Assembly: GCF_019448235.1 (NCBI RefSeq)
Contig: NZ_CP080409.1
Span: 1,860,001 to 1,924,000 of the forward strand
Reading direction: 5' to 3'
Source of the DNA: Nocardioides panacisoli
Lineage (GTDB): Bacteria; Actinomycetota; Actinomycetes; Propionibacteriales; Nocardioidaceae
DNA: 64,000 bases
In this document: in pieces, positions 35,579 through 44,785 of the stretch
How the letters are laid out: each line of letters begins with the position of its first letter
Position numbering within the stretch: the stretch's first letter is position 1
Translations under genes and position numbers: made by a program
The notes under the pieces: generated by a model
The model's input: only the letters and a program-made list of their open reading frames with translations
Database searches by the model: none
What the model was told of the DNA's origin: nothing

Positions 35579-36874
35579 CTAGGGCGTACGCCGCGCCGCC
35601 CGGAGGCGACCCAGCCCCGGGATGCGCGCCCCGTGCTCGGTCCACCACCAGGCCCCGAGCGCGCCGACCAGGCCCCCGATGCCGAGTGCCGCGACGGCGT
35701 GGAGCAGCACCTCCGCCGAGAACGGGCCGACCGCCTGCAGGCGCCCCGGGCCCACGGCACCGCCCGAGAGCGAGGTCAGCCAACCCAGCAGGAAGCCGGC
35801 GAGGATGCCGCCGACGCCTCCGCGGACCGCTGCCCGGTCCCAGGTGACCGCGGGCAGGCGTCGGTGGGCGCGCGCGGCGGCGAGGGCGGCGACGACGGCC
35901 GGGGTGCCCATCACCAGCACGGCGACGGTGTCGCCCAACCCGGCGGCCGGCAGCGCGGCGAGGAGCGGGAAGAGCGGGAGCGGGCCGAGGACGACCGCGG
36001 CCGGCCCGACGACCGTGCCGGTCCCGAGCGTGAACCCGGGGCCGAGCAGGTAGGCGCTGGACCACAGCGTGGCGTTGGGAGCAGCGGTCAGCGAGAGGGC
36101 GGAGACCAGCGCGGCGTCACCGGCGCCGGTGTCGAGCTGGGAGACGATGTTGGCGGCGGTGGCGAAGTCGGCCACGAGGGCCACGACCCACGCCAGCGTC
36201 GCGAACACCAGCCAGGTGACCAGCAGGCTCCGGCACACCGCTGCTGCTGCCCGCACTGAGGGCGGCAGCAGTGTGACCCACACGGCCGCCCGACCACTCC
36301 CCGCGGCGATGGCGGGGAGGCCCACGAGCGTGGTCAGCAGCAGCGACCAGCCGACGGCACGCGGCGTGCTGGGCACGGTCGCGGCGGTCGAGGTGAGGGT
36401 GGCGGTGAGCACGGTGACCAGGACGTAGCCGGTGACGAACAGCAGGGCCGCGGTCGGCACGGTCCAGTCACGTTCGCCGTCCTGGATCCGACCGGCGTCG
36501 GGACCGTGGTCGGCGATCGACTCCCCCACCCGGTGCCCCACCCGCCACACCGACCAGGCGGCGAGCAGGGTGAGCCCGAGCGGCACCGCGGTGATGCGCA
36601 CGCCCTCGATGGTGATGCCGGAGCCGTGCGCGAGCAGCCACCCCGAGGCACCCACGCGGAGCGCGCCGCTGGGGCTGCCGTGGGTGCCGGCGTCGGTGAG
36701 GAACCACCCCACGACACCGACGGCGAGCAGCACCAGGAGCGGTCCGGCAGCTGCGATCGCGCCACCGAGGGTGGCCGTCGGGACGAGCGGGCGGCGGGTC
36801 GCGAGGCGGCGGCGTACGTCGGCCTCCGTGCTGGACGACGTCGCCGACGATCGGGGCGGATGCAGCAGCGTCAT
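35579..36874 (-). CDS. DUF6350 polytopic membrane protein
   Basis: A 431-aa membrane protein with about ten hydrophobic segments and a cytoplasmic, Ser/Arg-rich N-terminus. Its position just upstream of purN-purH fits the actinobacterial DUF6350 family, whose function is unknown. ATG 36874 is the first reasonable start; a longer frame upstream runs antisense to the sigma-like fusion gene and is not supported. purN starts 9 bp after its stop, so it probably heads the purN-purH-folD run. Confidence 0.75.
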   Translation of the reverse strand: MTLLHPPRSSATSSSTEADVRRRLATRRPLVPTATLGGAIAAAGPLLVLLAVGVVGWFLTDAGTHGSPSGALRVGASGWLLAHGSGITIEGVRITAVPLGLTLLAAWSVWRVGHRVGESIADHGPDAGRIQDGERDWTVPTAALLFVTGYVLVTVLTATLTSTAATVPSTPRAVGWSLLLTTLVGLPAIAAGSGRAAVWVTLLPPSVRAAAAVCRSLLVTWLVFATLAWVVALVADFATAANIVSQLDTGAGDAALVSALSLTAAPNATLWSSAYLLGPGFTLGTGTVVGPAAVVLGPLPLFPLLAALPAAGLGDTVAVLVMGTPAVVAALAAARAHRRLPAVTWDRAAVRGGVGGILAGFLLGWLTSLSGGAVGPGRLQAVGPFSAEVLLHAVAALGIGGLVGALGAWWWTEHGARIPGLGRLRAARRTP

Positions 36875-36946: not shown

Positions 36947-38854
36947 ATGAGCGACGCCCCCACCTCCCGCGACCCCGCCGCGGAGTTCGACGAGTTCTAC
37001 CGGCTCACCCGCGACCGGCTGCTGCTGCAGACCTTCGCGCTCACCGGTGACCTCACGGCGTCGCGCAGCGGCGTACGTGACGCGTTCGTCGTGGCGTGGC
37101 ACCACTGGCCCAAGACGGCCCGCGCGACCGATCCCGAGTCCACGGTGCGGACCACGGCCTGGCGCCACGCACTGCGTCGCGCGACGGCCCGCCGTTGGCG
37201 CCGTGACCAGGACTTCGACGCCGAGGCGAATGCGGTACTGGACGGGCTGGCGGACCTGTCGCTCGTGCAGCGCAAGGTGCTGCTGCTCACCCAGCTGGCC
37301 GGCACGTCGCTGCAGGCCGCCGCCCGCGAGGTGGCGTTGCCACTCGAGGCGGCGTCGCGCGAACTCGGCACCGGCGCGGCCGACTTCGCCCGCGTCCGGG
37401 CGATCGACACCGCGGAGATCCCGCAGGCCCTCGCGTCCCTCTCCTCGGCGACCCGCACGGTGCGGTGGCCCCGCAGCAGCATCATCACGCGGGCGGGCGG
37501 AGCCCGGCGCCGCGCCCACACGGTGGCCGGTGCCGTGGCGGTGGCGGCCACCCTGGTCGTGGCGGGCATGGCCGTGGGCGACTCCTCCGGCGTACGCCCC
37601 ACGTTGGACCGCCAGGTGGAGCGTCCCAGCAACGGCGTGGTGGCCGATCCGCAAGTCACGCTCCCGGACACCGAGTTGCTGCCGGCTGGTCCCGTCCAGA
37701 CCTCGCTCGGCGGACGCGGCTGGAAGGAGCGGTCGACCAAGGACAACTCCGACGGAGACGGTCGGGTGCTGGCATGCCAACAGGCGCGCTACGTCGACCC
37801 CGACGGCGAGGCGGCGTGGGTGCGCACCTTCCGCGACGGGCCGCGCGGCAACGACGAGACCCGGCGCGTGATCCAGGTCGCCGAGGCGTCGGCCGACCAG
37901 GATTCGGCGCGGACGTCCTACCGCCGTCTGCGTGACTGGATGGCGGGCTGTGCCCCGGAGTCGAACGAGGGCCAGAACCTGCCGCAGCACCGCCTCGTCG
38001 CGACCTTCGACATCGAGGACGTCGGCAACCAGGCGCACCTGTTCCTGCTGCGCAACGACCAGACCGGCGTCACCTACGCCACTGCCATGGCGCGCACCGG
38101 GCGACTGGTCACTGCGGTGTCACTGGAGACGGCGGCATTGGCGATGCGGACCAACCGGGACGCCGTGGCCGACCTCGTGGGGTCGGCGGTGCAGCGGATG
38201 TGCAAGTTGCCCGCGGCGGGCAAGTGCGCCGGTGACGCTGCACTCTCGGAGGTGCCGCCGTTCCCGGCCGGTGAGAATCCCGCGCTGCTCTCCACCTGGG
38301 ACCTCCCGCCGGCAGGGCGGGACACCGGGACGTGGGTGGGTCCGCCGGTGTCGGCGCTGACTGCCGAGAGCGGTGAGATCGGCGTCGTGAGCTGTTCCAC
38401 GGTGGGCCTGGCCGGCAAGTTCAAGGGGGCGGGCTACCGTCACGGTGCGCTGCGATCGTTCGTGCTGCCCGAGGCCAACCTCCCGGTCGAGTTCGGCCTG
38501 ACCCAGGCGGTGGCGTCACTGCCGGCAAAGCGCGCGAGCCAGTTCGTCGGCGACGTCCGCGGCAAGATCGCGGAGTGCCCGGACTCCGACGCGGGCGCCG
38601 GCACGAAGGTCCGCCAGTTGCTCCGCCGCGACAACGGCGACCGCTCGATCACGGCGTGGCAGCTGCGCACCGAGCTCCCCGACGACCAGGTGCTGACCTA
38701 CGACATCGCGATCCTGCGCGACGGGACCTCGGTCTCGGCGCTGCTGTTCGTCTCGGTGCCCCGCGCCCAGATGAGAGACGGCAACTTCGTCGGCCTCGCC
38801 GAGCGTGCCCTGGAGCGGCTGGACGAGCTGCCCGGCTACCAGAAGAAGCGCTGA
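36947..38854 (+). CDS. Fusion of a degenerate ECF sigma-like domain, one membrane helix and an extracytoplasmic sensor domain
   Basis: A 635-aa protein. Residues 14-165 align with an ECF sigma factor, and EFDEFY, ALTGD, VRTTAWRHALRR and RWRRDQD are shared with the separate sigma factor at 40395. The sigma-4 part (LSLVQRKVLLLTQLAGTSLQ) is degenerate in its recognition helix. A membrane helix (about 192-210, VAGAVAVAATLVVAGMAVG) is followed by a 420-aa exported region. That region holds two mixed beta units with cysteine pairs, similar in layout to the sensor at 40900. ATG 36947 has TAGGAG upstream. Function is unknown; a membrane-held DNA-binding regulator or a former sigma/anti-sigma pair are the two readings. 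Confidence 0.75.
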   Translation: MSDAPTSRDPAAEFDEFYRLTRDRLLLQTFALTGDLTASRSGVRDAFVVAWHHWPKTARATDPESTVRTTAWRHALRRATARRWRRDQDFDAEANAVLDGLADLSLVQRKVLLLTQLAGTSLQAAAREVALPLEAASRELGTGAADFARVRAIDTAEIPQALASLSSATRTVRWPRSSIITRAGGARRRAHTVAGAVAVAATLVVAGMAVGDSSGVRPTLDRQVERPSNGVVADPQVTLPDTELLPAGPVQTSLGGRGWKERSTKDNSDGDGRVLACQQARYVDPDGEAAWVRTFRDGPRGNDETRRVIQVAEASADQDSARTSYRRLRDWMAGCAPESNEGQNLPQHRLVATFDIEDVGNQAHLFLLRNDQTGVTYATAMARTGRLVTAVSLETAALAMRTNRDAVADLVGSAVQRMCKLPAAGKCAGDAALSEVPPFPAGENPALLSTWDLPPAGRDTGTWVGPPVSALTAESGEIGVVSCSTVGLAGKFKGAGYRHGALRSFVLPEANLPVEFGLTQAVASLPAKRASQFVGDVRGKIAECPDSDAGAGTKVRQLLRRDNGDRSITAWQLRTELPDDQVLTYDIAILRDGTSVSALLFVSVPRAQMRDGNFVGLAERALERLDELPGYQKKR

Positions 38855-38864
38855 CCCCGGCCGC

Positions 38865-40271
38865 TCACGCGGCGTACGTCGGCGGCGGCGCCCGGGGCGG
38901 CAGGTAGGTGAAGCGCCCGCTGTCGTCGACCCGCGGTGGTGGGATCCAGACGGGCCGGTGGGACGAGGGGTCTATGCGGATCTGCCAGGGGGTCTCGTGG
39001 ACCACGGTGTGGTGCGCACGGCAGAGCAGGACCAGGTTGGCCAGCGAGGTGGCGCCACCGTCGGCCCAGTGCACGACGTGGTGGGCATCGCAGGCGATCG
39101 GTAGGCGGGTGCAGCCGGGGAAGGCGCAGTGCTGGTCCCGCAGCACCAACGCGTGCCAGATCGCGGTGGTGACGAGCCGCTGGGTCCGCCCGACGTCGAG
39201 GACCTGGCCGCGGCTGCCGAGGACGGCCGGGAGGATCTCGGCGTCGCACGCCAGCCGGCGCACGGCTCCCACCGACAGTGAGTCGCCGCCGGCCAGTCGG
39301 CCCTCGCCGCGGCATGTCGATGTGGCGGCGAGCTGCTCGCGCAGGTCGTCGTACCGCATGGTGACCACGACGCGCGCAGCCGTGCCATGGGTCTGCGGCA
39401 CGGAATCGGCGGCGACGAGTCGACCGGCGGCCTCGACCAGGGCGTCCCAGAGCCGTACGCCGGCATCGCGGGGATCGCGACCGTCGTGGGCACAGGTGGG
39501 ATCGGGGCAATTGCGACCGACGCGCCGGCCCTCTCGGTCGCGCTGGCCGATCGTGCCGGGCTCACCGCCGCAGGCACCGGAGTCCGTCGGCCGCGGCGCG
39601 GCCAACGGCATCAGCGCGGTCTTGACCAGCTCGGCCTCCTCGGCGGTGGCGTAGCCCCGGATGCGGACCCCGCCCAGGCCGTCGGCGCTGAAGGCGAGGT
39701 GGCGCGCGCGGTGGGCGCCGCGCTCGGTCAGCTCCTTGTCGCGCTCACCACCCAGCAGGCGCCCGTCGGGGTCCAGCTCGGCCACGACGCCGGGCATCGC
39801 ACGGTCGAGGTCGGTCGCGTCGTACCCGTGCTGCGCGACGCGGTCGAGCATCGTGCTCGCCGCCGTGGCGCGGAACTCGGGGTCGCGCGGCAGGGTCGCG
39901 ACCCGGTTGCCGATCACGCGGGCCTGCGCCAACGAGATGTCACCGGCGGACAGCGCACTGCGCACCTCGGGAAGCTCACGCGTCTGCCGCGCGGTGCGGA
40001 CCAGTCCACCGCCGGCGCCCTTGTGACCACCGGTCACGTGGGTCAGCAACTCCTTCGCGCCGGCCCACCCCAGGTCCTGGGCGGCACCGGTGTCCTCCAG
40101 GCGGTCGGCCAGCGTCACCAGCACCGCGTCGAGCGCCGCCCGGGCACGCGCCACGTCCGCGGCCGCGGCGGGCAGGTCGCCGGCCTCGATCTCTGCCGCC
40201 GATCGCGCGAGCCGCACCGCAGCGTCGGCGACCTCGGCGGCCGACGAGGCGGGAGCGGTGCTGGGCGACAT
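38865..40271 (-). CDS. DUF222/HNH endonuclease family protein (13E12 type), SOS-boxed
   Basis: A 468-aa protein. An all-helical DUF222 region (residues 20-330) is followed by an HNH nuclease motif, CAFPGCTRLPIACDAHHVVH and then GGATSLANLVLLCRAHH, with both zinc-type cysteines and the catalytic HH. Family members are the multi-copy 13E12 proteins of actinobacteria, several of which are LexA-controlled in Mycobacterium. A perfect SOS palindrome lies 13 bases before the ATG at 40271. It sits between two sigma/sensor modules and may be an insertion between them. Biological role is unresolved. Confidence 0.87.
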   Translation of the reverse strand: MSPSTAPASSAAEVADAAVRLARSAAEIEAGDLPAAAADVARARAALDAVLVTLADRLEDTGAAQDLGWAGAKELLTHVTGGHKGAGGGLVRTARQTRELPEVRSALSAGDISLAQARVIGNRVATLPRDPEFRATAASTMLDRVAQHGYDATDLDRAMPGVVAELDPDGRLLGGERDKELTERGAHRARHLAFSADGLGGVRIRGYATAEEAELVKTALMPLAAPRPTDSGACGGEPGTIGQRDREGRRVGRNCPDPTCAHDGRDPRDAGVRLWDALVEAAGRLVAADSVPQTHGTAARVVVTMRYDDLREQLAATSTCRGEGRLAGGDSLSVGAVRRLACDAEILPAVLGSRGQVLDVGRTQRLVTTAIWHALVLRDQHCAFPGCTRLPIACDAHHVVHWADGGATSLANLVLLCRAHHTVVHETPWQIRIDPSSHRPVWIPPPRVDDSGRFTYLPPRAPPPTYAA

Positions 40272-40299: not shown

Positions 40300-40394
40300 A
40301 TCGCAAGGAATCCACGGCTCGATCGGGCACGCCTGCAACCGTTGACCCTGCTGTCGCGTAGAGCATGGTGAGGACAGCGATCTCAGGGGGCGCC

Positions 40395-40907
40395 GTGGAC
40401 GAGCAGGAGTTCGACGAGTTCTACGCTGCGTCGTTCCGCCGGGTCACCACCCAGGTCTACGCGCTCATCGGGGACGCGGAGGAGGCCGCGGACTGCGTGC
40501 AGGAGGCGTTCGCCCGGGCCTGGTCGCACCGTCGCAAGCTGGACCGTGCCGAGTACCCCGAGGCGTGGGTGCGTACGACGGCCCACCGGCTGGCCATCAG
40601 CCGATGGCGCCGGCGGCGCCGGGACCGTGGGGCACCGGACCGCGCCGTGGGGGGTGCGCTCGCCACGCGCGAGGTGGACGAGACGCACGTCGCGCTGGTC
40701 GCGGCGCTGCGGCAACTGCCGCCGGCGCAACGCGAGGCGCTCGTCCTGCACCACATCGCCGACCTCCCGGTCCACCGCGTCGCTGTCGAGGTCGGCGCCC
40801 CGGAGGGCACCGTCAAGGCCCGCCTGAGCCGCGGGCGCACCGCACTCGCCGCCCTGCTCACCGACGATCCGTCCGGTGGCATCGCAGGAGGAATCAACCA
40901 TGCCTGA
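40395..40907 (+). CDS. ECF RNA polymerase sigma factor (SigE/SigM-like)
   Basis: A 170-aa sigma-70 family protein with region 2 (EFDEFYAASFRRVTTQVYAL, then DCVQEAFARAWSHRRKL) and region 4 (LRQLPPAQREALVLHHIADL, then APEGTVKARLSRGR) intact. GTG 40395 has GGGGG four bases upstream; ATG 40365 would add ten residues. The next gene starts inside its last codons (8-base overlap), so the two products are made together. The second gene encodes a membrane protein with a short cytoplasmic N-terminus that may bind the sigma factor. Confidence 0.87.
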   Translation: MDEQEFDEFYAASFRRVTTQVYALIGDAEEAADCVQEAFARAWSHRRKLDRAEYPEAWVRTTAHRLAISRWRRRRRDRGAPDRAVGGALATREVDETHVALVAALRQLPPAQREALVLHHIADLPVHRVAVEVGAPEGTVKARLSRGRTALAALLTDDPSGGIAGGINHA

Positions 40908-42285
40908 CCCCATCGAGCACATGCAGCACCTGCGCGACGCGATGCCCGACGCACCGATGCCGTCGGCTGCCGCCGTACGTCGTCGCGGTGACCGGCTGCG
41001 CCGCCGCCGGACGGTGGGGCTCACCGGAGCGACCGCGCTGGCCGTGGTCGCGGTCGTCGCTCCGCTCGCGATCCTGACCGGTGGCGACGACGCCGGGCAG
41101 GTCGATCCTGCGGCTCCCACCACCACGGGCGGCGCGCCGAGCATCAGCCGGTCGGACCTGATGACCGACGCCGAGACCGAGTTCGACCTCAACGAGCAGT
41201 GGCAGGTCGGCGAGACCTTCGCGGGCGACGGCCAGGCGGTCGCCAACGCGTGCCAGGAGTCCTCCTTCGCCGATCTCGGTGCCGGAGCGGTGTTCCAGCG
41301 GACGTGGAGCCTGGAGGTCCACTCGCTGACGCAGGTCATCGCCGAGTTCGACTCCGCCGCCGATGCGACGGCGGCCCGGGAGGAGGTCCGCGGCTGGCTC
41401 GCCGACTGCACGCCGGCGGGTGCCTCCGGGACCTCGACGAGTGACCTGCCGGCCGCCGACGACGTCGCGGACGGGTCCGCGGTCCTGGCCCGCACCACCT
41501 ACCGCCTCGACGGGCCGACCGGTGGCGAGGCCTTCAACGACCACGCGTTGGTGACCGGCGCCGCCGTGACCGGGGACCGGCTGACGGTGCTCTCCCACGA
41601 CATGCCCACGGCGGACTACGACCCGATCTGGGGGATCACGTCACCGGTCGAGCGCATGCTGGGCCCGGCCTTGGACCGCGTGGCACGCTCGGCCACGGCC
41701 AGCGATGGAGCCGGCCCCACGGGCACCGAATGGCGACTCGACATCCCGGCGGACTTCCCCGTCGACCGCGACCTGACCTCGCCGGAAGGGGATCCGATCA
41801 ACGGCCCCGGGCCCGACGCGATGGGCGTCAACCCGTTCAACATCTGTCCCGGTGCCGGGGACGGCAAGGCCGACTGGCCGGCGCCGTTCGTGGACCGCCT
41901 GGCAGCGGCGGCCACCGGCCCGGAGTTCGCCGACTCGCGCGAACTGGTCCTGTTCCCGGACGAGGAAACCGCGGCCGGCGTCCTGGAGGCCCTCGAGGCC
42001 GATGCCGAGCGGTGCGCGGACAAGGAGGAACAGGTCTGGACCGCCCACCCGGACAACCGGCCACCCCGCGGCGCCGACGGTTTCCTCGTGCTCTCGCGCA
42101 CGTTCTCCACCGCCCTCGGCGGCGACGTCTACCACCTGGTCCAGGTCGGCAACGCCGTGCTGGCCGTGGACTCCTACGGCGAGTGGGAGCTCTCCTCGAC
42201 CGTGCCGATCGCCATCGAGGAGCTCTACGCGATCACCGACCCGCTCTCGGCGGAGATGTGTGTCTTCGCCGCCGACGGCTGCTGA
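40900..42285 (+). CDS. Single-span membrane sensor protein paired with the ECF sigma factor
   Basis: A 461-aa protein. A 38-residue cytoplasmic N-terminus (MPDPIEHMQHLRDAMPDAPM...) precedes one helix (about 39-59) and a 400-aa extracytoplasmic part. The latter contains two alpha/beta units reminiscent of PknH-type extracellular sensor domains, with Cys residues near NACQESSF, LADCTP, NICPGAG, ERCADKE and EMCVFAADGC. ATG 40900 has AGGAGGA upstream and overlaps the sigma stop by eight bases. It could be an anti-sigma factor, but no HxxxCxxC zinc motif is present, so this is inference. Confidence 0.72.
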   Translation: MPDPIEHMQHLRDAMPDAPMPSAAAVRRRGDRLRRRRTVGLTGATALAVVAVVAPLAILTGGDDAGQVDPAAPTTTGGAPSISRSDLMTDAETEFDLNEQWQVGETFAGDGQAVANACQESSFADLGAGAVFQRTWSLEVHSLTQVIAEFDSAADATAAREEVRGWLADCTPAGASGTSTSDLPAADDVADGSAVLARTTYRLDGPTGGEAFNDHALVTGAAVTGDRLTVLSHDMPTADYDPIWGITSPVERMLGPALDRVARSATASDGAGPTGTEWRLDIPADFPVDRDLTSPEGDPINGPGPDAMGVNPFNICPGAGDGKADWPAPFVDRLAAAATGPEFADSRELVLFPDEETAAGVLEALEADAERCADKEEQVWTAHPDNRPPRGADGFLVLSRTFSTALGGDVYHLVQVGNAVLAVDSYGEWELSSTVPIAIEELYAITDPLSAEMCVFAADGC

Positions 42286-42362: not shown

Positions 42363-43271
42363 TCAGAGGTCCTTGAGGATCTCCCGCATCAGCTCGGCGG
42401 TCGCGGACGGCGTCTTGCCGACCTTCACGCCGACGGCCTCGAGGGCCTCCTGCTTGGCGGCCGCGGTGCCCGAGGAGCCCGACACGATGGCGCCGGCGTG
42501 GCCCATGGTCTTGCCCTCGGGGGCGGTGAAGCCCGCGACGTAGCCGACGACCGGCTTGGTCACGTTGTCCTTGATGTACGCCGCGGCGCGCTCCTCGGCG
42601 TCGCCGCCGATCTCGCCGATCATCACGATCGCCTTGGTGTCGGGGTCCTTCTCGAAGGCCTCGAGCGCGTCGATGTGGGTGGTGCCGATGACCGGGTCGC
42701 CGCCGATGCCGATGGCGGTGGAGAAGCCGTAGTCACGCAGCTCGTACATCATCTGGTAGGTCAGCGTGCCCGACTTCGACACCAGGCCGATGGGGCCCTT
42801 GCCCGCGATGGTGTGCGGCGTGATGCCGGCCAGCGACTCCTCCGGCGTGATGATGCCGGGGCAGTTCGGGCCGATCATCCGCGTGCCGGCGTGGTTGGCG
42901 TCGGACTGCAGGTAGGACCACACCTCGGCGGTGTCCTGCACCGGCACGCCCTCGGTGATGACCACCATCAGGCCGATCCCGGCGTCGACGGCCTCGATGC
43001 AGGCGTCCTTGGTGAAGGCCGGCGGCACGAAGAGCACCGACACGTCGGCGCCGGTCTCAGCCATCGCCTCCTTCACCGATCCGAAGACGGGCAGCTCGAC
43101 GTCGGCACCGTTGCTGTCGGCGTGGGTGACGGTCGTGCCGGCCTTGCGGGCGTTGACGCCACCCACGATGTTGGAGCCGGCCTGCATCATCAGCGCGGTG
43201 TGCTTGGCACCCATGCCGCCGGTGATGCCCTGGACGATGAGCTTGGAGTCCTTGTTCAGGTAGATCGACAT
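42363..43271 (-). CDS. sucD: Succinyl-CoA ligase [ADP-forming] subunit alpha
   Basis: A 302-aa protein. [13 protein letters not shown] is the CoA-binding loop, [12 protein letters not shown] holds the cysteine region, and [13 protein letters not shown] plus [14 protein letters not shown] contain the phosphohistidine His (MGHAGA). With SucC it makes succinate and ATP or GTP from succinyl-CoA. It follows sucC by 20 bp. Confidence 0.97.
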
Positions 43272-43291
43272 AGTTTGTTCTCTCCTCCGCC

Positions 43292-44455
43292 TCAGCCGTT
43301 CGCCAGCTCGGCGGCCTTGTCAGCGGCGCCGTCCATCGTGTCCGCCATGGTGACCAACGGGTGGTTCCGCTCGGACAGGATGCGCCGGCCCTCCTCGACG
43401 GCGTTGCCGTCGAGACGTACGACGAGCGGCTTGGTGGCCTCGTCGCCGAGGATGTCGAGCGCGCCGACGATGCCGTCGGCGACCTCGTTGCAGGCGGTGA
43501 TGCCGCCGAACACGTTGACGAAGACCGACTTCACCTGCGGGTCGTTCAGGATGACGTCGAGGCCGTCGGCCATGACCTGCGCGTTGGCGCCGCCACCGAT
43601 GTCGAGGAAGTTCGCCGGCTTCACGTCGCCGTGCTTCTCACCGGCGTACGCGACGACGTCGAGCGTGGACATGACCAGCCCGGCGCCGTTGCCGATGATG
43701 CCGACCTGACCGTCGAGCTTGACGTAGTTGAGGCCCTTGTCCTTGGCCTTGGACTCCAGGGGGTCGGCCTCCTCGCGGATCTCGAACGACGCGTGGTCCT
43801 CGTGGCGGACCTCGGAGGCGTTCTCGTCCAGCGACACCTTGCCGTCCAGGGCCTCGAGCTTGTCGCCCTCCAGACGGGCCAGCGGGTTGACCTCGACGAG
43901 CGTGGCGTCCTCCTCCACGAAGGTCTTCCACAGCGTCAGCACCGTCTCGACGGCCTGCTCGGTGAGCACCTCGGGGAAGGCGGCCTCGGCGACGATCTCG
44001 CGGGCCTTGGCCTCGTCGACGCCGGCACCCGGGTCGATCGGGATCTGCTTCACGGCGTCGGGGTTGGTCTTGGCGACCTCCTCGATCTCGACGCCGCCCT
44101 CGACGGAGGCGATGCAGAGGTACCGACGGTTGGAGCGGTCCAGCAGGAAGGAGAAGTAGTACTCCTCCTCGATGCTCGCGCCCGGAGCGATCAGGACCCG
44201 GCCCACGGTGTGGCCCTTGATGTCCATGCCGAGGATGTTGCTGGCGTGCTCGAACGCCTCGTCGGGCGTCTTCGCGAGCTTCACGCCGCCGGCCTTGCCA
44301 CGGCCACCGGCCTTGACCTGGGCCTTGACGACCACGACGCCGAGCTTCTCGGCGGCGGCCTTGGCGTCCTCCGGGGTGGTGGCGACGATGCCCTCGGTGA
44401 CCGGGACACCATGCTTGGCGAAGAGCTGCTTCGCCTGATACTCCATCAGGTCCAC
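43292..44455 (-). CDS. sucC: Succinyl-CoA ligase [ADP-forming] subunit beta
   Basis: A 387-aa ATP-grasp protein: [20 protein letters not shown] at the N-terminus, [20 protein letters not shown] for nucleotide binding, LVEVNPLA for metal binding, and [16 protein letters not shown] late. GTG 44455 (VDLMEYQ) has GAGGA nine bases upstream and matches the usual MDLMEYQ start of homologues; ATG 44446 is three codons in. It is first in the sucCD operon. Confidence 0.96.
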
Positions 44456-44785
44456 TGAATTCGTCCTCTTGGTTCGGGTACGGGCTCTGGCGGGTGGCCG
44501 GCCGACGAGCGACAGCCCATCCTCGGGCACCCTAGACCGGATCGGCCGCAGGGCTCCACCGGACCCCCGATGTGCGTGATCTCCCTCTCATGCCCTAGCC
44601 TTCGGGGCGGTGACAGTGCCGCGGAACCGTGCGGATCGTGTGGTTGCGTTCACAGTTGCAGGCGTGGGCGATTTCGTCATGGGGTGCGATCCCCGTACGT
44701 TCGTCACTTGCGCTTCGCTGACACGCCACCACGGAGTCATCTCGCGGGGAAGCGCCCGGCCAGCACGTCGAGCAACGGAGACAGC
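44456..44785. other. 330-bp intergenic region between sucC and the M23 peptidase gene
   Basis: Divergent promoters for sucC and the peptidase gene must lie here. CCTAGCCT near 44596 is a possible -10 for the peptidase transcript, which would leave a leader of about 180 bases. That leader has several GC-rich segments able to fold, including GGGGTGCGATCCCC. I could not match it confidently to a known riboswitch or small RNA. No coding frame with a ribosome-binding site was seen. Confidence 0.5.

Follow-up and report, generated by a model that had tools for sequence, protein, structure and literature searches.

In a window of 64,000 nucleotides (nt) from the soil actinobacterium Nocardioides panacisoli (contig NZ_CP080409.1, positions 1,860,001 to 1,924,000 of the forward strand; the window is the whole stretch of DNA that was analyzed), one gene encodes a protein of 635 amino acids, P0001, in which a domain related to the extracytoplasmic function (ECF) sigma factors is joined through a transmembrane (TM) helix to an exported sensor. 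The account that we favor, tentatively and with a confidence a little short of even, is that an ECF sigma gene was joined to the adjoining anti-sigma/sensor gene and that its sigma part was then converted to a sigma mimic. By sequence comparison, the two halves of the protein are homologous to a sigma factor and to the membrane sensor of that sigma factor, and a sister family has the split pair at the corresponding position. Although conserved, the sigma part has, in an alignment weighted towards Nocardioides, lost about 12 linker residues and the usual charge on the helices that face RNA polymerase (RNAP) and the -35 element. On the best reading, the fused protein would not work as a sigma factor, nor would it be a regulator that binds DNA in the -35 manner; it would be a sigma mimic tethered to the membrane, similar in logic to PhyR. 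The gene starts with ATG, has AGGAG just 5' of this codon, and is made up as follows.

36947..38854, + strand: the fused gene, encoding a putative pseudo-sigma domain, an anti-sigma-like tail, a TM helix and an exported sensor (open frame; matched in 37/37 same-genus genomes)
36986..37204, + strand: sigma region-2-like part (residues 14-86), with R44 where close relatives have Q and a helix 2.2 of net charge +1
37232..37390, + strand: sigma region-4-like part (residues 96-148), with S137 and E139 in P0001 (E137 in 70/82 and E139 in 72/82 homologues)
37391..37522, + strand: cytoplasmic tail (residues 149-192), basic ahead of the membrane; its homologue is the N-terminal tail of the sensor in the split Actinopolymorpha-type pair (hhalign 85.4%, E 5.8e-6)
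37523..37579, + strand: single TM helix (residues 193-211; hydropathy 2.19 at 193)
37679..38236, + strand: exported domain D1 (residues 245-430), a relative of domain 1 of the downstream sensor (hhalign 96.3%, E 1.6e-9)
38237..38836, + strand: exported domain D2 (residues 431-630), a weaker relative of the same domain type (hhalign against sensor domain 1 82.7%, E 9.4e-6)

A sequence-only reading of this DNA had proposed that residues 14-165 resemble the true ECF sigma factor encoded downstream, here called sigma2, and this was borne out. Residues 13-132 of P0001 matched sigma2 with 36% identity (E 2e-14, BLASTP), and a profile of the N-domain family matched canonical sigma factors at 99.8% (E 2e-27, hhalign), compared with 0.1-0.3% for three unrelated hhalign pairings (two with the N-domain and one with the tail). 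These matches show common descent of the sigma2/sigma4-like domain of P0001 (residues 14-148) with the SigE-type ECF sigma factors. Against the sigma-70 domain models, suggested earlier as a check, P0001 was weak: Sigma70_r4_2 matched at 11.7 bits (cut-off 25.7), and Sigma70_r2 had no match to P0001 at E<=1 in the Pfam scan. P0001 also stayed below the curated cut-off of TIGR02983 (34.8 bits, cut-off 141.55). One of the seven other fused members scanned passed for Sigma70_r4_2 (P0006, 28.4 bits), and the Pfam annotation of the 120 homologues listed placed Sigma70_r4_2 in 23 and Sigma70_r2 in none.

The hydropathy profile of P0001 had one peak (windows 190-196), and the same rule counted one TM helix in 77 of 82 homologues and two in the other five. 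All six cysteines of P0001 (277-544) lie beyond the helix and were invariant in 82/82 homologues. As the first of them, at 277, is already past the membrane, the cytoplasmic side has no cysteine and P0001 therefore has no zinc anti-sigma domain. No receiver domain was found in Pfam scans of P0001 and seven further members, and no added DNA-binding domain in these eight. The layout agrees with the earlier proposal of a sigma-like domain tethered to an extracytoplasmic sensor. A promoter scan found no sigma-70-type site and is uninformative either way.

The tail of the fused protein matched that of the downstream sensor, sensor2 (hhalign 64.6%, E 6.3e-5; unrelated control 0.1%). The claim that the fused C-terminal part resembles this sensor held by profile (exported part 97.2%, E 4.5e-11) but not by BLASTP, where the exported part had no significant match to sensor2 (best E 0.34), and the likeness was uneven between domains. 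D1 and D2 matched sensor domain 2 at only 30.5% and 33.8%, and each other at 51.1% (hhalign). The relation of the ectodomain to the downstream sensor is, on these profiles, distant and clearest for D1. PF14032 (PknH_C) had no match in P0001; it matched 23 of the 30 members of the sensor2 alignment at E<=0.1, and sensor2 domain 1 is similar to D1 by profile. In four sensor2 homologues (P0123, P0147, P0160 and P0166), the PknH_C-like exported domains appeared by eye to vary in number and order. With the N-terminal part sigma-like and the exported parts related at the sequence level, the earlier observation is confirmed; its interpretation was partly supported, as described below.

The protein search found 214 homologues of the fused protein among 8000 scored candidates, and the 120 listed cover 95-100% of the query. 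The fused gene was matched at E<=1e-12 in 133 of 149 genomes of the family, and the match was full-length and in a single frame in 119 of the 149 (for two genomes the match came in two parts within a single open frame; one stop codon falls in each of six rows). The other 14 matching genomes showed contig ends, an assembly gap (G029), frame-split halves (G103), partial matches or the exported part only. A sequencing error or gene-call artefact could be read into the different frames of the two halves in G103 and the gap in G029, but the single-frame matches and the nearly complete coverage of the listed homologues refute it, and we give it practically no chance. At the G103 locus (L048, 4851-6804), where the sigma-like part and the sensor are in different frames, either a re-split gene or a sequencing error would produce this arrangement.

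A tblastn survey of 60 loci placed the gene in a conserved block, purH-purN-DUF6350-[X]-sucD-sucC. In the Nocardioidaceae, X was the fused gene, followed in many loci by sigma2 and a sensor; the distance from the fused gene to sigma2 was 55-163 nt in most loci listed and up to ~1.5 kb or more in others. In family f4 (Actinopolymorpha-type; L118-L124), X was a canonical sigma gene and a sensor gene that overlapped by 11 nt in 7/7 loci, and the exported domain of this sensor resembled D1 (hhalign 95.9%) and not clearly D2 (22%). The same module thus exists as two genes and as one 635-residue chain, as had been noticed from the window itself, and the survey of fused and split forms extends this to a single locus in related families. 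Because the overlapping pair stands split at this locus in Actinopolymorpha-type genomes, we interpret the fused gene as a fusion of a sigma gene and a sensor gene; a frame shift inside an overlap of the 11-nt type would join the two. With sigma and membrane sensor in one chain here and split in relatives, the architecture is that of a sigma/anti-sigma fusion, in which the tail would have the anti-sigma role. In two other families of the order, f3 and f2 (L061-L067), X was an exported sensor in which no sigma domain was found, and some genera of the family likewise had this sensor-only form there, with no detectable sigma domain (L052, L054-L058).

In sigma factors, helix 2.2 touches the beta' coiled coil and region 4 binds the -35 element, while the region 3.2 linker of sigma70 threads the RNAP channel (PMC4598750). 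We compared the corresponding parts of 26 fused N-domains taken from the loci with 68 canonical sigma factors (38 sigma2-type, 7 f4 and 23 SigE-type). An alignment termed A1 contained the 82 fused members that an 80% identity cut left of 136; those whose source organism was named came mostly from Nocardioides. The 23 SigE-type loci had been retained from 30 by the motif GT[VI]KSQ, so the counts of K137, G134 and T135 are circular in that set.

At residue 44 in helix 2.2, Q was present in 67/68 canonical sigma factors, in 1/26 diverse fused domains and in 0/82 members of A1, where 81 had R. The net charge of residues 36-46 (helix 2.2) averaged -1.8, -3.0 and -3.6 in the canonical groups and was 0 to +2 in 82/82 members of A1. 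Residue 137 in the recognition helix was K in 45/45 sigma2-type and f4 sigma factors; K occurred there in 0/26 diverse fused domains, and K or R in 0/82 members of A1, where E was the usual residue. For residues 133-147, the -35 recognition helix, canonical means of +2.6 to +4.0 stood against a mean of -1.6 in A1 (-3 to 0 in 82/82). The spacing between R68 and R109 was 51-57 in 68/68 canonical sigma factors, 41 in 82/82 members of A1 and 40-41 in 25/26 diverse fused domains (55 in L060), and the sigma2-sigma4 linker was about 12 residues short throughout A1. By these measures region 4 is degenerate, as the sequence-only reading had suggested, and region 2.2 and the linker are altered too.

A control similar to ECF52 was sought, and a TM helix after the sigma domain was found in 0/20 long open frames from four genomes; soluble C-extended sigma factors were therefore used. 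This control set comprised 20 comparison sigma factors, 17 with a readable helix 2.2 and 10 with soluble C-terminal extensions (from Streptomyces-like genomes). All ten C-extended members had a helix 2.2 charge of -3 to -4 with Q, a 4.2 charge of +2 to +4 and a spacing of 63-84, and therefore a C-terminal extension as such does not cause the altered charges and linker.

The altered helix charges, the short linker and the scores below cut-off agree with the earlier view that the protein is probably not a classic sigma factor. The companion claim was that it is a one-component transmembrane regulator; DNA would then be bound via region 2.4 or a remodelled region 4. Region 2.4, which is still basic, would suit such a protein, and so would a syntenic Streptomyces-like protein that adds an XRE-type helix-turn-helix (HTH) to a degenerate sigma domain and TM helix and may bind DNA by that HTH. 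However, the recognition helix of the fused family is neutral or acidic in 82/82 members and without K or R at 137, although the diverse fused domains scatter, and an added DNA-binding domain was present in 0/8 family members scanned with Pfam. DNA binding of this kind was not supported, and we consider it unlikely.

A working membrane-tethered sigma factor that is freed by regulated proteolysis, like IutY (ECF243) or the ECF52 protein SCO4117, would show the same gross layout of sigma domain, tail, TM helix and exported sensor. Fused sigma/anti-sigma proteins freed in this way are on record (PMC8999054; PMC5826349), and neither Q44 nor K137 is universal among ECF sigma factors. But in the fused family the linker is short and both helices are of unusual charge in 82/82 members, whereas 10/10 other C-extended sigma factors keep an acidic 2.2, a basic 4.2 and long linkers, and with no cytoplasmic cysteine there is no zinc anti-sigma domain. 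Release of an active sigma factor from P0001 is thus quite improbable in our estimate.

To judge from its divergence, the fused gene is kept and not decaying. Mean pairwise identity in A1 was 71% for the sigma2-like part, 61% for the sigma4-like part, 52% for the tail and ~45% for the exported domains, the sigma2-like part being the most conserved segment of the protein. The ratio of nonsynonymous to synonymous substitution rates (dN/dS) of the sigma part was 0.15-0.29 over 9 distinct close pairs and below that of the exported part in 8/9, the pairs having been chosen by >80% identity of the sigma part, which favours that part. This conservation speaks against the idea that the sigma part is a structural relic, now only capping or stabilising the tail of a sensor that does its work externally and might act with DUF6350 to control the envelope or cell division. 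The sensor-only forms in f2, f3 and some genera of the family fit such a relic, as does the persistence of DUF6350 as divergent neighbor. We take DUF6350 to be PerM, and we also assume a sucCD neighborhood for the mycobacterial perM operon. This operon encodes the division proteins PerM and Rv0954 (PMC8093794). We hold the relic explanation to be a poor candidate, with little chance of being right. Rv0954 itself was considered as a homologue and rejected; with four TM helices, cytoplasmic termini and another architecture, it is merely a positional parallel in spite of the operon that it shares with perM (PMC8093794).

In the sigma-mimic reading, the PknH_C-like exported domains would sense an envelope signal, and the single TM helix with its basic tail would relay it inward. 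The pseudo-sigma would be unable to bridge both sigma sites on RNA polymerase and would not start transcription. It would act by binding proteins, its own tail either closing it or letting it open in the geometry of CnrH-CnrY, and would titrate the short anti-sigma tails of at least one SigE-type sigma/sensor pair, as PhyR titrates NepR. TIGR02983 had 23 matches at E<=1e-3 in this genome and up to 76 in relatives, of which not all pass the cut-off, and there is therefore room for other SigE-type partners. Titration of sensor2 as the general mechanism was rejected, since sigma2 was not matched at E<=1e-45 in 117/149 family genomes; being far rarer in the family than the fused gene, sigma2 with sensor2 cannot be the general partner.

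Several observations weigh against the sigma mimic. The fused gene persists in a family where sigma2 was matched at E<=1e-45 in 32/149 genomes (<=23 candidates scored per genome). Sister families and a few genera still have the sensor without a sigma part. Among the 26 diverse fused domains the charges scatter, from -2 to +1 in helix 2.2 and from -4 to +3 in the recognition helix (mean -1.2), and region 2.4 keeps a basic mean of +4.5. Q44 was missing in 3/17 readable comparison sigma factors (3/7 readable rows without extension), and the 10 C-extended sigma factors carry N, R or A at 137, not K, in a helix that is still basic. The CnrH-CnrY geometry is transferred to the fused protein by analogy only. 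Since Q44 and K137 are not universal in ECF sigma factors, the length of the linker and the charge of the helices can be relied on more as marks. The same fact, together with the scatter in the diverse fused domains, led us to put less weight on the mimic and more on release by proteolysis.

The genes around the fused gene in the window are listed below.

35579..36874, - strand: DUF6350 membrane protein, divergent neighbor, 72 nt from the fused gene (PF19877, 210 bits; synteny)
38865..40271, - strand: DUF222/HNH gene that separates sigma2 from the fused gene in this genome and does not belong to the system (PF02720, PF01844)
40365..40907, + strand: sigma2, a canonical SigE-type ECF sigma factor (Sigma70_r2 47.6 bits and Sigma70_r4_2 51.2 bits, both passing; TIGR02983 140 bits, just under 141.55)
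40900..42285, + strand: sensor2, a membrane sensor and putative anti-sigma factor with PknH_C-like exported domains (PknH_C 22.9 of 27 bits)
42363..44530, - strand: sucD and sucC, which close the syntenic block on the other side (Pfam; synteny)

The start of sensor2 overlaps the stop of sigma2 by 8 nt. The DUF222/HNH gene had no match in the 60 loci searched and for this reason looks like a lineage-specific insertion.

Outside the order, the fused-profile matches among those listed were to the sigma part. Beyond the family we examined another 40 genomes, taking one or a few from each family among the matches listed, some of them cut by contig ends; a sigma of this kind adjoined DUF6350 in 10 of the 40, with a weak sigma match at L207 excluded. 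In Streptomyces-like genomes (family f22, the genus being inferred from a Tap-like HTH match), the protein at this place has an XRE-type HTH, identified by Pfam for L174 only, followed by a degenerate sigma domain, a TM helix and ~60 exported residues. Its 11 rows had Q44 in 0/11, K137 in 0/11, a spacing of 44-45, R139 in 11/11 and a mean recognition-helix charge of +1.6. The Streptomyces-like loci tested lay beside sucD-sucC in 10/10 cases and matched DUF6350 by tblastn in 8/10, and L242 was also at the same locus. A low-complexity stretch was seen between the XRE-type HTH and the degenerate sigma domain in these proteins (L168-L177, L179, L242).

Family f23 was represented by 16 loci, 11 with tandem modules, 1 with two canonical sigma genes and 4 with one. 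The tandem loci (L209, L239, L243-L250, L253) have the order sigma1-sensor-sigma2-sensor beside DUF6350; here sigma1 is a separate gene with E137, Q44 and a spacing of 41-48, and the sigma factor neighboring it is canonical. These 11 half-degenerate sigma factors had intermediate charges (2.2, -2 to +1; 4.2, +1 to +2). E137 and Q44 served to define the 11, and short matches had led to the choice of most of their genomes, so these two residues are not independent counts. The full charge change was seen only in the fused family.

In a tree built without the trait columns, these 11 nested inside the f23 sigma factors (98/94), while the fused proteins (92/72) and the Streptomyces-like ones (99/97) formed clades of their own. 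The fused sigma (FUS) and the Streptomyces-like sequences formed one clade in a quick tree (94.6) and were not joined in the tree without trait columns. An origin of FUS from a recent sigma2 duplication was considered: the tree set FUS outside sigma2 and the Actinopolymorpha-type sigma (93/83), but constrained trees joining FUS with sigma2 or with the Actinopolymorpha-type were not rejected (p-AU 0.72 and 0.79), and such an origin may still hold. All trees rest on 105-150 columns and do not settle the deeper branching order. Thus at this one locus a shorter linker and the loss of K137 arose in at least two lineages and perhaps in a third, and the repeated shortening suggests a shared selective reason. 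A broader scenario is that the sigma factor next to DUF6350 repeatedly became a pseudo-sigma in actinobacteria, as a separate gene in f23, joined to the sensor in the Nocardioidaceae, and in one chain with an HTH and TM helix in Streptomyces-like genomes. The Nocardioidaceae form would then be a class of membrane receptor whose sigma-mimic output controls other sigma factors by titrating anti-sigma tails. We regard this scenario as doubtful.

Fused sigma/anti-sigma proteins are thought to be sigma factors awaiting proteolysis. IutY (ECF243), ECF48, ECF52 and ECF53 likewise carry sigma domain, membrane helix and exported part in one chain, arisen from anti-sigma fusion (PMC8999054). These proteins are regarded as sigma factors that proteolysis releases, and the actinobacterial ECF48, ECF52 and ECF53 have a zinc-finger domain between sigma and TM helix. 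Set against their descriptions, the fused protein differs in its altered sigma marks, its lack of cytoplasmic cysteines and its PknH_C-like exported domain. It is a strongly conserved member of this architecture without features of its nearest sigma relatives, and since the features those relatives keep have been lost, annotation as a sigma factor may mislead; source names for its homologues include hypothetical protein, sigma24-type and, for P0183, SigE family sigma factor.

PhyR, the sigma mimic of the alphaproteobacterial general stress response, likewise has a conserved ECF-like domain that is degenerate in the RNAP- and promoter-binding regions, and it titrates an anti-sigma factor (PMC8103513). 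Unlike PhyR, the fused protein sits in the membrane, carries an exported sensor and lacks a receiver domain, and its anti-sigma binding is putative, by analogy. The anti-sigma factor CnrY embraces a closed sigma factor, CnrH (PMC4598750), and the short cytoplasmic tail of a membrane protein could likewise wrap a closed sigma domain in the fused protein; CnrH and CnrY, however, are separate proteins and CnrH is a functional sigma factor. The pairs of a SigE-type sigma factor and a PknH_C-like sensor (window 40365-42285 and the Actinopolymorpha-type locus) have a homologous sigma, tail and exported domain at the same locus, but consist of two overlapping genes and keep canonical sigma marks. The Streptomyces-like XRE-HTH protein shares with the fused protein the position between DUF6350 and sucD-sucC, the loss of K137 and Q44 and the short spacing (11/11). 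It differs in its extra HTH, the lack of a PknH_C-like exported domain, an unlike tail (0.4%), a mildly basic recognition helix and the retention of R139. If the sigma-mimic reading is true, a receptor whose output domain mimics a sigma factor would be a new route for an envelope signal. Since split, half-degenerate and fused stages occur at a single syntenic locus, a route from switch to decoy can be tested. No membrane-tethered degenerate sigma domain was found in the literature searches or in the tables of PMC8999054, a coverage that does not extend to the main classification paper cited there. Compared with these systems, the fused family is probably a new variant of the sigma/anti-sigma fusion, one that would work more like a sigma mimic.

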